Below, piece by piece: positions 12,375-41,132 of a stretch of DNA of 41,132 nt (the stretch's first letter is position 1; each line of letters starts with the position of its first letter). The notes beneath the pieces were generated by a model. That model was not told where the DNA came from and searched no databases. It was given only the letters and a program-made list of their open reading frames with translations. The DNA is taken from positions 1 through 41,132 of the forward strand of contig JAAYZX010000033.1 in assembly GCA_012514635.1 (NCBI GenBank). Reading direction: 5' to 3'. The translations under genes and the position numbers were made by a program. The DNA is from Actinomycetota bacterium (lineage in GTDB: Bacteria; Actinomycetota; Thermoleophilia; RBG-16-64-13).

Positions 12375-12447
12375 TGGAGGTAAGGGGACTCGAACCCCTG
12401 GCCTTCGCGATGCGAACGCGACGCTCTCCCAGCTGAGCTATACCCCC
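12375..12447 (-). tRNA. tRNA-Ala (anticodon CGC)
   Basis: A 73-nt cloverleaf on the minus strand. The acceptor stem is GGGGGTA/TACCTCC (one G-U pair), the D-arm is GCTC...GAGC, the anticodon stem is TCGCG/CGCGA with loop TTCGCAT (anticodon CGC, reading GCG), and the T-arm is AGGGG-TTCGAGT-CCCCT. Discriminator is A; CCA is not encoded. Confidence 0.96.
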
Positions 12448-21345: not shown

Positions 21346-24300
21346 CTATGCGCACTTGGAATAACCGCAGGCTCTGCACACCACGCATCCCCCCTCATGC
21401 TCGATAGCGCCGCCGCAATCCGGGCAGGCGCCTTGAGCATAAGCAATGGGCATTTCCAGCTGCTCAACCTCATATTCTTTTGGCTCACCAGGCTCTGCGT
21501 GGAGATACTTATCGGCAAGTGAGTTGGCGATGGCGTCCGGGCAGGAGAGGACCTGGTTCGGCCCCAGGCCGTGCGGCACATGACAGCGGATCCCTTTGAG
21601 CTGTTTCACAATCTTTTCAGGAGGCGCTCCAAAGCGGAAGGCCAAAGAAATGAGACGACCCATGGCTTCTGTGGAGGCTGAGGCACAACCACCGGCTTTG
21701 CCCATGTTGGCGAAGATCTCACGTGGGCCCAGTTCGTCTTCGTTGATAGTCACATACAGACTGCCGCAACCTGTAACCTGCTCTCGAGTCTCGCCCCGCA
21801 GCACGCCGCCGCGGCTGCCGCGCGGCGGCAGCGTCACCGAGCCGCAGACCGGACACACGCCCACACCCCCACCGGCCTCGGCCAGATGCTCTGCCGCCAG
21901 CGCTACACTGTTGCCGTTGCCACCGGCCGGCGCGGTGCCGGCGGCGGTCCGCCGCTTCACCTCGCCAATATTCAGTACCTGATCCTCACGGGAGCCGTCA
22001 CGATAGATGGTGACCCCCTTGCAACCCAGCTCGTAGGCCATGCGGTAGACCTTCTCCACGTCCTCGGGCGTGGCGGAGTGGGGAAAGTTGACCGTCTTGG
22101 ATACGGCATTGTCTGTGCTTTCCTGGAAGGCCGCCTGCATACGAATGTGCCATTCGGGAGAGACATCGTGCGCGGCGACGAATATGCGCTTGAGATCGGC
22201 CGGCAGATCCGCGATGTCACGCAAAGTGCCCTTGGTCGCCACCCGGCGCATCAATTCCTCTGAATACAGACCGCGCTCCCGGAGCACGCGCTCAAAGTAG
22301 GGTTGCGCTTCAGGGAGTTCCGCATTATCGAGGACGTTGCGAACGAAGGCCAGGGCAAAGAGTGGCTCTATGCCGCTGGAAGCTCCTCCAATGATACTGA
22401 TGGTGCCGGTGGGGGCGATAGTGGTGAGGGTGGCGTTGCGAACACGACGCCCGCGGGCTTCCCATGTACTTCCTGCGAAGTTGGGAAATACGCCTCGCTC
22501 CTGCGCCAGTTGCTCGGAGGCCACAATGGCCTCTTCGTCGAGGAAGGCCATCGTCCTCCGCCCCAGCTCCACAGCCTCTTCTGAGTTATAGGGGATGCCC
22601 AGCTCCATGAGCATGTCGGCCCAACCCATGACGCCCAAGCCGATCTTGCGGTTGCCTTTGGTCATCTCCTCGATCTCGGGCAGGGGGTACCGATTCATGT
22701 CGATCACGTTGTCGAGAAAGCGCACCGCCAGACGCGTAACGCGTCGCAGTTCGTCCCAGTCGATATCCCCGTCCTTGAGCATGAGACGTAGGTTAATGGA
22801 GCCCAAGTTGCAAGATTCATACGGCAGAAGCGGTTGCTCGCCGCAGTTGTGAACCACGATTCCGTTGGCTACGAAGGAGTGTGTCACCGGCTCGGTGAGA
22901 TCAAACACCGGCTCTTCCCACTCCTCCACCACCCGTGTAACACGAGCGAAGAACTTCTCCGCGTAGGGTCCCCTGATGAAGCCGGACAGACAGCGCCGCA
23001 GCGACTCCTCTTTGTGACGAACCAGAAACCCGATCTCGCGTTGAAACGTTGCCATGCTTCTACCGCCGATACGCAACTCGTGAACGAGCTGAGTTGCGTG
23101 CTCCTGCGCGGCGCCGCTTACGGTGGACGGAAGATCTGTGGACTGGTTTCGTCTGCGATGGCGATAAATTTGACTGAACATACCGAAGTTGAGCAACAGC
23201 AGCTGAACTTCCCTGAGCAGCGACTCGCTGACCGAAGTCAGATGCACATATCGGTCTCGTTTTAAACGGTTGTTAACGGCGCCGTCCACCGAGAACAACG
23301 CCTGCAGAAAACCGCGCTGCATATCCTCAGAGCCGCAGAAGACCACCTCAGGAACCTCGAGCTTCTGAGTATCGAGGGCGAAGTGCTCCGCGATCTCGCG
23401 CAAACAGGACGACTGCACACGCACCTCGTTGCGCTCCGCTATCTCCACCACACTGGTGAAGTACGGGCGTTCCGACCGAGCTTCCCTGGCCACATTGTCG
23501 ACGGCCCGACGGAAAAGCGAAGCGATCTCGCGTTCCTCTCCCCGGAAAGAAAGCACGGGACGCTCCCGTTTGATGGTGCTTTCACCCACTAACCGGCCGA
23601 GCACTCGGCCCAAATCCAACGACCCATCCTTACCAAAACCGCCTTTGCGATTGAGTACATGAAGACGGTCGCCGGGGGTCAGTTCCTCCACCGCCATCCA
23701 GCCGCGCTCAGTCATGACGCGATGATCGGCGGTGGCCCGCAGCGAGAAGCCTTCCTTGGTCTCCACCCGATACACCATCTTATGCCCGGTGTAGTACAAA
23801 GGTGAGGCGGGATGAGCGTCCTGTGTCGATCGTCGCCCATCCACCACCACTGCCGCGGGTTCCGGATCCGCAAACAAGTTACGCACACTGCGGATACCGG
23901 TGTCTGTATACACGAGGGTATCCAGAGTGACGCAGGGATTTGTGCTCTCGATCTCTCCTACCTGGGGCGTGGGATTGTCGCGATTCAGCCGATCCAAGAA
24001 CACGATACCGGGTTCACCGTTCTTCCAAGCCAACTTAACGATGAGATCGAACACATCCCGAGCACGATAGCGCGCCGACTCCCGGCCGCTGCGCGGGTTG
24101 CGGGTGGCATACTCGCTATCGGTGCGCACGGCGTGCATGAACTCTTCGGTAATTCCCACGGAGATGTTGAAGTTGCTGAGAACTCCCTCTTGCTCCTTGG
24201 CGGTTATGAACTCGAGGATGTCGGGATGGTCCACGCGCAGGATGCCCATGTTGGCACCGCGACGGGTGCCGCCCTGCTTGATGGTCTCGGTGGCGGTGTC

Positions 24301-24786
24301 GAATACACGCATAAACGACACTGGACCGCTGGCTACACCGTTGGTGGATTTCACCAGATCGTTCTTGGGGCGCAACCGACTGAAACTGAAACCGGTGCCG
24401 CCACCCGATTGGTGTACCAGCGCCGCATTCTTGATAGCGGTAAAGATGGAGTCCATGCTGTCCTCCACGGGGAGGACAAAACAGGCCGCAAGCTGCTGTA
24501 GATCCCGCCCGGCGTTCATCAGAGTAGGCGAATTGGGCAGGAATTTGAGTCCGGCCATGATCTCGAAGAAACTGGTGATAACGCCGTCCAGCTCCGCATC
24601 GGGATGGTAGTTGAGCTCCGCCTGCGCGATGTTTTCCGCCACCCGCGCAAACATATCCGCAGCCGTCTCTTGGGGCGCACCCTCCTCATCCCGTCGCAGA
24701 TAGCGCTTCTGGAGCACGGTGACGGCGCTGGGGGTGAGGCTCTTCTCCAGAGCCTTGGACAACGCCCTGATCTGTGCCACGGTCAC
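21346..24786 (-). CDS. nrdJ: Adenosylcobalamin-dependent ribonucleotide reductase with intein
   Basis: Class II ribonucleotide reductase precursor, 1146 residues. Residues 285-647 are an intein, leaving a 783-residue enzyme. Extein landmarks are [40 protein letters not shown] followed after splicing by [16 protein letters not shown], and [16 protein letters not shown]-like domain follows (from about residue 1030), with two CxxC zinc-ribbon segments (VCPVCG and the C-terminal CPDCGG...CRACGY). The Asn-Pro-Cys-Gly-Glu junction carries the thiyl-radical cysteine. Its GTG start overlaps the nrdR stop in GTGA, so the two are coupled. Oxygen-independent chemistry suits an anaerobe. Confidence 0.96.
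22846..23934 (-). mobile_element. Intein with LAGLIDADG-type homing endonuclease remnant in NrdJ
   Basis: A 363-residue in-frame insert. It begins with Cys ([13 protein letters not shown], block A), has the block B TxxH motif in RATADHRV, and ends with [10 protein letters not shown] and [12 protein letters not shown] (blocks F/G). The following extein Cys supplies the +1 nucleophile. In the middle, LGRLVGES and [11 protein letters not shown] resemble the two LAGLIDADG helices. In the first, the usual catalytic Asp position is Glu, so endonuclease activity may be weakened. Confidence 0.95.
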
Positions 24787-25244
24787 CGGTCTCCCCCTTT
24801 GGATAGGCGGGTCAACTCTCGCTCGAATTCTTCCACGCTCTCAAACTGCCGGTACACGGAGGCGAAACGCACGTATGCTACCAAGTCCACAGTCCGCAGT
24901 CTTTCCAAAACCATCTCACCCAACTGTTCCGAGGTCACCTCGTACACCATCTCTTTCCGCAATTCCGTCTGGATGTCGGTGACAATCTGCTCCAGCGCGC
25001 TGAGCGGCACATCCCGCTTGGTGCACGCACGCAGCAACCCACGCAACAACTTCTCCTGCTGAAACTGTTCCACTGCGTCGCTCCGCTTGTGGACCAGGAT
25101 AGGGATCTCTTCTACCCTCTCGTAAGTGGTGAAACGCCGGCCACACCCTACGCACTCCCGCCGACGGCGTACAGCATCCTGTGCTTCGGCCTCCCGTGAA
25201 TCCACCACGCGCGTCTCGTCATGGGCGCAGTAGGGACAGCGCAC
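24783..25244 (-). CDS. nrdR: NrdR transcriptional repressor
   Basis: A 153-residue zinc-finger/ATP-cone repressor of ribonucleotide reductase genes. Zinc cysteines are at 3, 6, 31 and 34 (CPYC and CVGC), followed by RRFTTYERVE and an ATP-cone domain (about 49-139). It senses the dATP/ATP balance. GTG 25244 has GAGG five bases upstream. It is cotranscribed with nrdJ and likely autoregulated through the boxes upstream. Confidence 0.97.
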   Translation of the reverse strand: MRCPYCAHDETRVVDSREAEAQDAVRRRRECVGCGRRFTTYERVEEIPILVHKRSDAVEQFQQEKLLRGLLRACTKRDVPLSALEQIVTDIQTELRKEMVYEVTSEQLGEMVLERLRTVDLVAYVRFASVYRQFESVEEFERELTRLSKGGDR

Positions 25245-25305
25245 AACTACCTCATCCCCTCATGGCGTACACAATCCACAATTATTCCCCCGTGTTTTCC
25301 CCAGG

Positions 25306-25314
25306 TTATCCACA
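25306..25314 (+). promoter_or_regulatory. DnaA box (exact consensus)
   Basis: TTATCCACA matches the consensus DnaA box exactly and overlaps the proximal NrdR-box candidate. DnaA is known to regulate ribonucleotide reductase genes in E. coli. A single 9-mer can occur by chance; its position is the main argument. Confidence 0.45.
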
Positions 25315-25355
25315 ACATATCGTGGCCACCTGTAGGCTAACACACCATATCTGGG
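25310..25355 (-). promoter_or_regulatory. Candidate tandem NrdR boxes upstream of nrdR-nrdJ
   Basis: CCACAACATATCGTGG (25310-25325) matches about 12 of 16 positions of the palindromic NrdR-box consensus (acaCwAtATaTwGtgt). ACACACCATATCTGGG (25340-25355) matches about 10. Their ATAT centres are 30 bp apart, close to three helical turns, as usual for paired NrdR boxes. They lie 66 and 96 bp upstream of the nrdR start and could also affect the divergent GerMN gene. Confidence 0.65.
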
Positions 25356-25450
25356 TGCGCAACAGGAAAACTACCTTATGCGTACAGGACCGTGCAACCC
25401 GGCGCCAATGGAGTATGATAACGCCGACAGCGGACGGAAAGGCGGACACT

Positions 25451-26425
25451 GTGCCAAACCACCCACATACGTCGCGCGCAACACCTATACTGAGCCCGCC
25501 GAGATGGATTCGCTCCGACGGCAGGATTCTTGTGGCTCTAATCATCGTAGCGTTATCGATAATGCTGGCCGGTTGCGGAGAAACCGTCACCACCCTCTCT
25601 GCCACCACCGAAGGCGCTCAACCCGTACCTTCCACCACTGTGGTAACCACAGCGCCTCCCGCAACAACCGGTACTTCAGCCACAACTACTACCACCATCT
25701 GGTCGCCATCCTCCGGTGAAGGAGCGGTCATGATCTACCTGATCCAAGGTGAATCTCTGGCCGTCACGTGGCGCCCCGCCGGCCCCCACGAGGCCGCCGC
25801 CATCATGGAAGGGTTGCTCAGCGGCCCCACCTCTCTCGAAGAAGAAATAGGCTTCAGTACCGCCGTGCCCATCGACACCACCCTGCGTTCGGTTACCGTC
25901 TCCGGCGACACAGCTGTGGTTGACCTCTCGCCCGCTATCGGTGCCGGAGGGGGAAGCCTCTCCATGCTCCTGCGTGTGGCCCAGGTGGTCTACAGCCTCA
26001 CAGAACTGCCCGGCGTGACACGCGTGGAATTCATGATCGACGGCTCACCGGTAGAGGCGCTGGGGGGCGAGGGTGTCATCGTGGAGGGAGGCGTAACGCG
26101 TAGCGATTTCGTAGGCCTCCTACCTCCGGTACTCCTCATCGCGCCCGCGCCGTTTGAAACCATCCAGAGAACGCTGACCGTGCGCGGAAATGCTGCTCAG
26201 GACGTCGAGACGCTGGACATCCTGGTGACGGGACGAGACGGCCTAATCCTGACCGAGACCACGCTCGAACTCCGGGCATCCGTCGACAACCGGAGGCCAT
26301 TCGAGACCGAGATGACCTTCTCTGGTACGGCGGCGCGCGGGGCCATCATTCTGACCTGGATCGATCCCGACGGACGCAAACAGGTATTGGAGGTACCGGT
26401 GGAGGTGGAGCTAACGGAGGTGTGA
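25451..26425 (+). CDS. GerMN/Gmad2-domain lipoprotein
   Basis: About 324 residues. A type II signal peptide with lipobox LAGC (Cys at about 42) is followed by a Thr/Ser-rich linker, a GerMN domain (about 90-210; VMIYLIQGESLAVTWRP, GDTAVVDLSPAI, VEFMIDGSPVE) and an Ig-like Gmad2 domain (about 230-324; IAPAPFETIQRTLTVRGNA). Such proteins occur in spore formers and widely in non-sporulating Actinomycetota as cell-envelope proteins. GTG 25451 is chosen for a loose GGAAAGG; ATG 25415 in frame adds 12 residues. Its end overlaps the convergent LuxR-type gene by 15 bases. Confidence 0.85.
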   Translation: MPNHPHTSRATPILSPPRWIRSDGRILVALIIVALSIMLAGCGETVTTLSATTEGAQPVPSTTVVTTAPPATTGTSATTTTTIWSPSSGEGAVMIYLIQGESLAVTWRPAGPHEAAAIMEGLLSGPTSLEEEIGFSTAVPIDTTLRSVTVSGDTAVVDLSPAIGAGGGSLSMLLRVAQVVYSLTELPGVTRVEFMIDGSPVEALGGEGVIVEGGVTRSDFVGLLPPVLLIAPAPFETIQRTLTVRGNAAQDVETLDILVTGRDGLILTETTLELRASVDNRRPFETEMTFSGTAARGAIILTWIDPDGRKQVLEVPVEVELTEV

Positions 26426-38219: not shown

Positions 38220-41132
38220 CTACGCCGCCGCCCACTCTTCGCTCAGCGCCTCGGCCTGTTCGAGCACGGTGATGGTCGCCCTCTCCTGCTTGTCGGGTGG
38301 GTAACCGTATTTGCGAAGGATGCGCTTGACGATCACCCGCAGTTGGGCGCGCACATTCTCACGCATGGTCCAGTCGATGGTGATGTTGGCCCGCACGGCT
38401 GCCACCAGTTCGCGGGCGATCTCGCGCAGGGTCTCGTCACCCAACACCTTCACGGCGCTGTCGTTGGTCTCGAGAGCGTCGTAGAAGGCCAGTTCATCGT
38501 CGGTGAGGTCTAGGGCCGCGCCCCTCTCCTCGAGTTCGCGGAGGTCTTTGGCCAGCTTGATCAGCTCCTCGATCACCTGGGCGGCTTCGATGGTGCGGTT
38601 CTGGTAACGCCTCAAGGTCTGCTCCAGCATCTCGGCGAAGGAGCGGGCCACCACCACGTTCTTGCGCGAGCGGGTGCGGAGCTCGCCTTTCAACAGCTTC
38701 TGGAGCACCTCGACCGCCAGGTTGCGTTGGGGCATGCCCCGTACTTCGGCGAGGAATTCGTCGGAGAGGATGGAGATGTCCGGTTTCTTGAGACCGGCGG
38801 CATCGAAGATGTCGACCACTTCATCAGACAGCACCGCTTTGGAGACTATCTGGCGGATGGCCTGGTCAAGCTCTTCGTCGGTGCGTGACTCTCCGGGGGC
38901 GCGTTTGGTGAGCCCGGCCCGCACATCTTGGAAGAAGCCCACGTCGTCGCGGATGCGTTTCGTCTCTTCGTGGGGCACAGAGAGGGCGAAGGCCTGCCGG
39001 AGATCGGCGATGGCCTTGAGGGCACGGTCTTTGCCGTTCTCTTGGGCGAGGATGTGTTCTTGGGCCTCGCGGAGAAGGACGAGACGCTCCGAAGCACTGC
39101 CCGTGGCCCAGGCCGAGCGATCGAAGCCGTGGAAGAGACCCTGGCAGACCTCGTATTTCTCCAGCATGACCGCGACGGCGGTCTCTTGGTCGATGGTCGC
39201 GCTGCCGCGCCCGCCGCTCTCGGTGTAGGTGGCGAGGGCTTCTTTCAGTTCCGTAGCCAACCCCAGGTAGTCGACCACGAAGCCGCCGGGCTTGTCCTTG
39301 AACACCCGGTTCACCCTGGCGATGGCCTGCATGAGGCCGTGGCCGCGCATGGGCTTATCCACATACATGGTGTGAAGACTGGGGGCATCGAAGCCGGTCA
39401 GCCACATATCCCTGACGAGCACCATCTTGAAAGGATCGGCGGGGTCGCGGAAGCGCTGCGCCAGAACCTCCCGGCGGGTTTTGTTGCGCGAGTGGGCCGC
39501 ATAGCGCGGGCCTTCGGAGGCGCTGCCGGTCATGATGACCTTCAGGGCCCCCTTCTCATCGTCTTCGTGGAACCAGTCGGGGCGGAGCTTCACTATCTGG
39601 TCATGAAGATCCAGGCAGATGCGCCTGCTCATACAGACCACCATGGCTTTGCCCTCAAGAGTCTCCTCGCGCTGCTCGAAGTGCTCCACCAGATCACGGG
39701 CGATGAGCTCCAGACGATGCTCGGTGCCCACCATGGCCTCCAGTTGAGCCCAGCGGGTCTTGAGCCTCTCCTTCTTCTCGATCTCTTCGCCTTCGGTCGC
39801 CTCCTCGAAGTCGGGATCGATGTGGGGGAGTTCGGCCTCATCCAGAGCCAGTTTGGCCAGACGGCTTTCGTAGTAGATGGGGACGGTGGCCTTATCCTCT
39901 ACCGCCCGGTGGATGTCGTAGACGCTTATATAGTCGCCGAAGACGGCGCGGGTGTTGGCGTCTTTGAGCTCGATGGGAGTGCCGGTGAAACCCACGAAGG
40001 AGGCGCCGGGAAGAGCGTCACGCATGTGGCGGGCGAAGCCGTCGATGAAGTCGTATTGGCTGCGATGGGCCTCGTCGGCGATGACCACGATGTTGCGGCG
40101 CTCAGATAGGGTCGGGTGGCGATCCCCTTTTTCTTCAGGGAAGAACTTGTGGATGGTGGTGAAAACCACGCCGCCCGCGGCCACAGAGAGCAGTTCGCGC
40201 AGGTGAGGCCTGCTCTCGGCCTGGACCGGAGGCTGCCTGAGGAGCTCACGGCACTGCGAGAAGACGCCGAAAAGCTGGTCGTCGAGGTCGTTGCGGTCGG
40301 TAAGCACCACGATGGTGGGGTTCTGCATGGCCGGCTCGCGGATAATGCGCCCGGCGTAGAAGGCCATGGTGAGGCTCTTGCCGGAGCCCTGGGTATGCCA
40401 GACGACGCCCACGCGGCGGTCGCCCGGGCTGCCGCCTCGCCGGTGCTGGGGGAGGACGTGAAGGTCGCCTAGGCCATCGGTGTCGGGCTCGGTCGCGTCA
40501 TCGTCATCTCGGGAGAGGGCCGCTGAGCGGAGCGTCTCTTCGATCGCCACCTGCACGGCATGGAACTGGTGGTATCCGGCCATCTTCTTGACCACCGTCC
40601 CCTCGTCGTCCTCGAAGACGGTGAAGTCCCTGATTATGGTGAGGAACAGCTCCGGGACAAGGAGCCCCCGCGCAAGCAACTCGAACTGCGGGGTGCGGGC
40701 CTCGACGTCGGGGTCCATCCCCAGGATGCGCCAGGGTTTGAACCACTCCTTGCCTGCGGTGAGGGTGCCTATCCGGGCCTCGAGCCCGTCGGAGACCACC
40801 AGCAATCCGTTGGTCTCGAACAGCGTGGGGATCTCGGCCTTGTAGGTCTGGAGTTGGTTGAAGGCGGACCAGATGGTGGCGGTCTCATCGGCTGCGTTCT
40901 TGAGCTCGATGACCACGAGCGGTAGTCCGTTCACGAAGAGCACCACATCCGGGCGACGGGTGCGCTTGTTCTCAGACACGGTGAACTGGTTGACGGCCAA
41001 GAAGTCGTTCGCCTCCGGCCGGTCGAAGTCGATCACCCGGGCCTGAGCCCCACGGATGCCGCCGTCAGCCGCCCTGTATTCCACGGTCACGCCGTCGATC
41101 ATGAGGCGGTGCAGATAGCGGTTGCGGACGAC
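38220..41132 (-). CDS. hsdR: Type I restriction enzyme, HsdR subunit (5' end beyond window)
   Basis: Motor and nuclease subunit of a type I restriction-modification complex, at least 970 residues; the frame is open at the window edge. The PD-(D/E)xK nuclease is visible near the start ([21 protein letters not shown], with Asp and E-x-K). Then come the SF2 helicase motifs: Walker [15 protein letters not shown] in [18 protein letters not shown], and the late motif [13 protein letters not shown]...[10 protein letters not shown]-terminal helical region (about 700-970) binds the HsdM/HsdS complex. hsdM and hsdS are not in the window and are presumably upstream. Intact reading frame suggests function. 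Confidence 0.96.

Follow-up and report, generated by a model that had tools for sequence, protein, structure and literature searches.

The nrdR-nrdJ locus and its predicted promoter

The window, by which we mean the whole 41,132-nucleotide stretch of DNA analysed here, is contig C11 of a 129-contig, 2.34-Mb genome that is 98% complete. Upstream of a class II ribonucleotide reductase (RNR) gene it carries a cluster of putative binding sites for the repressor NrdR and the replication initiator DnaA. The gene identities proposed by a sequence-only reading of this DNA, nrdR and class II nrdJ, are borne out by matches to TIGR00244 and NF006417 and by domain matches, with Zn-ribbon and ATP-cone domains detected in the nrdR product and Ribonuc_red_lgC, Intein_splicing and LAGLIDADG_3 in that of nrdJ. 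Both genes lie on the minus strand and their frames overlap (24783-25244 and 21346-24786). The features are:

21346-24786, minus strand: nrdJ, B12-dependent class II ribonucleotide reductase with an intein (NF006417, 1168.9 bits)
24783-25244, minus strand: nrdR, transcriptional repressor NrdR, GTG start (TIGR00244, 184 bits; cut-off 124.65)
25272-25280, minus strand: further TGTGGA repeat, TGTGGATTG, at offset 45, two mismatches to TTATCCACA
25295-25303, minus strand: DnaA box 2, weaker, TTTTCCCCA (coding strand TGGGGAAAA), 2 bp from box 1 in direct orientation
25306-25314, minus strand: DnaA box 1, exact TTATCCACA (coding strand TGTGGATAA), in a register common to 9 of 18 family genomes
25310-25325, minus strand: proximal NrdR box, CCACAACATATCGTGG (coding strand CCACGATATGTTGTGG), 12 of 16 consensus positions, over the predicted start
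25334-25339, minus strand: hexamer of a predicted extended -10, TGT-TAGCCT (TGTTAGCCT), from the family alignment
25342-25357, minus strand: distal NrdR box, ACACCATATCTGGGTG (coding strand CACCCAGATATGGTGT), 10 of 16 consensus positions, in the -35/-10 spacer
25357-25362, minus strand: weak -35, TTGCGC, 17 bp from the -10

The genome contains one RNR large-subunit locus, as do 17 of the 18 family genomes, and NrdD was found in none of the 18, so that nrdJ looks like the sole RNR of its genome. By coordinates, an RNR large-subunit locus adjoins nrdR in all 18 genomes, and nrdR itself is the single NrdR match in the window's genome. A second large-subunit match occurs in G003, on another contig (C95:4-2292) of a genome with 5% contamination. 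The nrdJ intein carries a LAGLIDADG domain, and the length of the nrdJ frames in G004, G011 and G015 hints at further inteins. The divergent gene at 25442-26425 encodes Germane and weak Gmad2 domains of the spore germination type, together with a likely signal peptide, judged by eye.

The sequence-only reading had placed two NrdR boxes 30 bp apart upstream of nrdR. The pair is present, and it recurs at 31-33 bp start to start in all 18 family genomes, but the spacing in the window is 32 bp and not 30, which leaves a 16-bp spacer. We scored the boxes position by position against a 16-position consensus and compared them with relatives; a strict 16-mer search of the window for the textbook box returned no site with three or fewer mismatches. 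In the window sequence alone the 30-bp register scores equal to the 32-bp one, and the latter was chosen because it fits the columns that are invariant in nine relatives, clade A below (-29 C, -27 A and GTGT at -20 to -17). NrdRs are described as binding box pairs with 14-17 bp spacers (PMC12051234), and the 16 bp found here satisfy the helical phasing of an NrdR-regulated RNR promoter. As in the canonical NrdR operator, two 16-bp boxes with a 16-bp spacer embrace the promoter; unlike there, the proximal box has a right arm ending in GTGG, which half of the family joins to a DnaA box.

A generic sigma-70 scan gave no promoter, and the extended -10 was recognised through the family alignment, in which every one of the 18 genomes has TGNTANNNT 7-8 bp ahead of the proximal NrdR box. 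Four of the 18 have TTGACA at the place of the -35, 17 bp upstream of the -10. Because of the conserved position of the -10 and the TTGACA in these four, we predict a transcription start near 25327, between the boxes, which would put the distal box between the -35 and the -10 and make the proximal box cover the start. The sequence-only reading had named a start upstream of 25400 as an outcome that would place the boxes elsewhere; the prediction does not point to one.

DnaA boxes in the leader and their conservation

The exact DnaA box claimed for the start of the proximal NrdR box is indeed there, at 25306-25314, and the two sites share 5 bp, CCACA (25310-25314). The claim of a single site was too narrow, since a second box at 25295-25303 had been missed, as had further repeats: box 2 is one mismatch from the degenerate box that we used and three from TTATCCACA, and with the TGTGGA repeat at offset 45 the window shows three such sites. 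Exact box 1 and weaker box 2 form a direct double box, with a gap of 2 bp in the window and of 3 bp in G007, G013, G004, G011, G002 and G012. E. coli DnaA is reported to bind mainly direct box pairs 2-3 bp apart, the site at nrdA included (PMC11317965). We consider it very likely, from their sequence and conservation, that boxes 1 and 2 are DnaA sites.

A single DnaA box in the window alone is not beyond chance: TTATCCACA with at most one mismatch occurs at seven sites against 4.5 expected, and a second exact copy lies at 39355-39363. Genome-wide, TTATCCACA has 19 occurrences, compared with five for the pattern read backwards. What raises the box above chance is the comparison with relatives, in which the NrdR pair is general and a DnaA-like 9-mer stands at exactly +11 from the proximal box start in nine of the 18 genomes, so that the conservation asked for by the sequence-only reading is found for the NrdR pair throughout and for the DnaA site in half of the family. 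These nine make up clade A (G000, which is the window's genome, G007, G013, G004, G011, G002, G012, G014 and G009), with TGTGGATAA in four, TGTGGACAA in three and TGTGGATTA in two, and they group together in the DnaA tree (100/99) as well as in the best NrdR tree (73/100). The other nine have no DnaA box within one mismatch in the leader.

It could still be argued that the TGTGG arm is a feature of the NrdR box only and that the TTATCCACA match arose by chance, as a single 9-mer in one window could, and GTGG-ended proximal boxes without a DnaA tail do exist (G010, G016, L019-L021). This reading is quite improbable, however: the tail and the second box are kept in nine genomes, the NrdR proteins of the eight clade A relatives being 64-74% identical to that of the window, and a double box also stands behind an NrdR box in three further families. 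Beyond the NrdR box, at offsets 16-19, the clade A sequences have a pairwise identity of 0.78 versus 0.20, about random, in the others, and for the core of box 2 the values are 0.72 and 0.27. In addition, clade A shows no variation in the right arm of the proximal box, the arm that also belongs to DnaA box 1, but does vary in the left arm, and clade B conserves the left arm better than the right; such an asymmetry would be predicted if a second protein reads the right arm.

Downstream of box 1 the repeats continue in the clade A leaders, with TGGGGA at offset 22-23 in seven of nine genomes and TGKGGA at offset 45 in six of nine. After the proximal box TGKGGA occurs 30 times in these leaders, always on the coding strand (shuffle control: mean 2.7, maximum 9 in 1000), and clade B leaders contain none. 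Repeat spacings cluster at 11-12, 21-22, 32-34, 43-44 and 54-55, and by alignment G014 and G009 have about 21 extra bp after box 1, that is, two repeat units. The best period is 10.8 bp, which none of 5000 random sets matched (five distinct patterns); 10 of 5000 did so without G009 and 444 of 5000 without G009 and G014. The apparent period leans on these two close relatives, and we treat it as supportive only. An origin-like DnaA array in the clade A leaders is plausible: as in origin arrays, boxes of the same orientation lie 11-12 bp apart, although here they would sit in an mRNA leader, with the strong box first and fused to an NrdR box.

The position of the repeats within the predicted leader, all on the coding strand, would also suit an action in the RNA, as CsrA-type GGA sites, a riboswitch or another RNA element. 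CsrA was found in 0 of 18 family genomes, so that a CsrA-controlled leader was rejected; a riboswitch, for example for cobalamin, was rejected for want of an Rfam match, the window's only one being a tRNA at 12375-12447; and a structured RNA was rejected since there is no conserved fold downstream of the boxes and the window leader has a z-score of -0.6. The only base pairs predicted are those between the two NrdR boxes, themselves DNA sites built as inverted repeats. Given moreover that the first repeat lies inside a DNA operator and that the variants match those at oriC, we regard an RNA element as very improbable.

Related sites at oriC and in other families

The genome-wide searches used patterns that were composed after seeing the sequences and that measure uniqueness rather than the odds of discovery. 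The strict pair TGTGGAYWAN{1,4}TGGGGAW occurs in seven of the 18 family genomes, once each and always at nrdR (control 0). A looser pair, TGTGGAN{5,6}TGKGGAW, gave 26 sites in the 18 genomes (about 50.5 Mb) against six for the backwards control, and by coordinates nine of these lie upstream of dnaA in the oriC-like region, seven at nrdR and ten elsewhere. The window's genome has three, in the oriC-like region, at nrdR and on C105; the last, a third phased TGTGGA pair (G000:C105:2721-2739), could be chance.

The oriC-like regions of 17 genomes (all but G005) use TTATCCACA, TTTTCCACA and TTGTCCACA near dnaA, and the box variants at nrdR are the variation seen there. A direct 12-bp box pair occurs in nine of the 17 regions and an 11-bp pair in two. 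The helix-turn-helix motif RDHTTV is present in 16 of 18 DnaA fragments; the dnaA of the window's genome is cut by a contig edge, with its DNA-binding domain outside the sequence. That another, unknown DNA-binding protein uses the TGTGGAYAA/TGGGGA repeats is in our view improbable. The TGGGGA repeats are weak DnaA boxes, and sequence leaves room for such a protein; box 1, however, matches the oriC boxes of the same genomes, and nine loci of family f25 have both boxes as exact TTATCCACA, 3 bp apart.

Two further observations concern the same regions. In L145 and L158-L173 the oriC-like region of the family is found at some distance upstream of dnaA and has a recurring layout, in which the direct 12-bp pair of nine regions is accompanied, in several, by an exact box about 120 bp away. 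The palindrome GTMCGCYNNNRGCGKAC (at most two mismatches) is present near the divergent promoter in every one of the 18 family genomes; it lies 177-379 bp upstream of nrdR across the family loci and at 25419-25435 in the window. Twelve of the 17 oriC-like regions contain similar sites (background 11 in 86,850 bp). It was first suspected to be part of the TGKGGA repeats and proved to be a separate element.

Beyond the family, the composite pattern ATNTTGTGGAYAAN{2,3}TGKGGA has 22 sites in 20 of 396 phylum genomes (control 0). Thirteen of them immediately precede nrdR and span four families (f25 has nine, f56 two and f13 one, and the last is that of the window); in the nine f25 leaders the two exact boxes stand behind NrdR boxes placed around a TATACT -10. 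Five more, all in f13 (three on one G157 contig, one in G373 and one in G196), combine NrdR-like pairs with a double box in stretches where no NrdR, NrdJ or DnaA match was found, and none of eight ORFs near the sites of G157 and G196 was identified as an nrd gene by a Pfam search. Of the remaining sites, two belong to DnaA-box clusters next to dnaA, one falls within a coding region and one is unassigned.

Among 80 named nrdR loci from many phyla, exact TTDTCCACA occurs within 350 bp upstream in three. Two of these are family members already counted (L048 = G004 and L049 = G011, 100% identical); the third (L114) has its box placed elsewhere and reversed, and an overlap of NrdR and DnaA sites was seen in 0 of the 78 other named loci. 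All 28 other class genomes with NrdR lack an exact DnaA box within 400 bp. In a tree of 55 rows chosen from the 154 NrdR sequences found in loci, composite-site carriers fall in two places and three changes are needed, of which the starred branches force at least two.

A proposed composite operator

Taken together, these comparisons favour, with a probability of roughly 0.65, the reading that DnaA and NrdR both control the sole RNR from sites that would be impossible to occupy together, and the fused site, kept in relatives, probably reflects a genuine regulatory connection. A composite operator would be made up of the roughly 60 bp that precede the nrdR-nrdJ leader, and on it DnaA would bind the double box, starting inside the proximal NrdR box and running into the leader, and in some relatives would probably extend over the weaker sites about 11 bp apart. 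As the right arm of the proximal NrdR box is also part of DnaA box 1, joint occupancy is most likely impossible; that the two proteins exclude each other at this arm is, on the layout of the sites, a reading to which we incline by a small margin. Against the overall reading stand the half of the family and the 28 class genomes that are without the DnaA box, the mismatches of box 2 in the window, and the five f13 composite sites with no recognised nrd gene close by.

NrdR with dATP and ATP is described as repressing RNR promoters, and in E. coli both NrdR and DnaA act on nrdAB (PMC12176259), which DnaA controls and, at high DnaA-ATP, represses (PMC8203912). By analogy DnaA-ATP on the leader would also repress, although a repressor role for DnaA at nrdR-nrdJ is offered tentatively, at somewhat under even odds. 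RNR output would then rise as DnaA-ATP falls after initiation, with NrdR setting a dATP ceiling, and since nrdJ is the only RNR found, the whole dNTP supply would be tied to replication initiation. The main rival is anti-repression, in which DnaA displaces NrdR from the proximal box and rising DnaA-ATP opens the promoter around initiation. The 5-bp overlap at the shared arm suits displacement, and E. coli nrdAB is also reported to be activatable at low DnaA-ATP (PMC8203912). DnaA bound at the double box, downstream of the predicted start, would however presumably stand in the way of RNA polymerase, and we consider anti-repression unlikely, though sequence cannot separate it from repression.

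That both proteins act on one RNR promoter is already established for E. coli; apparently new are the sharing of bases between the two kinds of site, a class II enzyme as the target and the repeated occurrence of the arrangement in Actinomycetota. Like the nrdAB promoter, the operator combines NrdR boxes with a direct double DnaA box 2-3 bp apart (PMC11317965, PMC12176259). It differs in its target, class II nrdRJ as the only RNR, and in the placing of DnaA box 1, which overlaps the proximal NrdR box by 5 bp and is located downstream of the predicted start. A layout more compact than that of nrdAB, as the sequence-only reading had it, is plausible. The literature on NrdR, DnaA boxes and RNR, in mostly open-access coverage that is weak evidence of absence, gave no account of NrdR and DnaA boxes fused to one another.

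Most of what is understood about how DnaA controls RNR comes from E. coli. Bacteria carrying the fused operator would be expected to lack Hda. A 2025 review asks how dNTP synthesis and initiation are coordinated in species without Hda (PMC11853086), and a conserved promoter with shared DnaA/NrdR bases before the only RNR offers a small, concrete target for this question, open to in vitro tests that need two proteins and a DNA fragment of about 80 bp.

On a broader view, the fused NrdR-DnaA operator is possibly a recurrent Actinomycetota control unit in which the initiator and a dATP sensor contest one promoter arm and the sole RNR is timed by initiation, and which arose at least twice or was kept and lost by lineage; the stand-alone f13 copies may be titration sites. 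These lie in L225 (G157) at about 2293, 8396 and 17033, in L219 (G373) and in L220 (G196), those of G157 falling within 15 kb on a single contig; alternatively, all five are perhaps dispersed copies.
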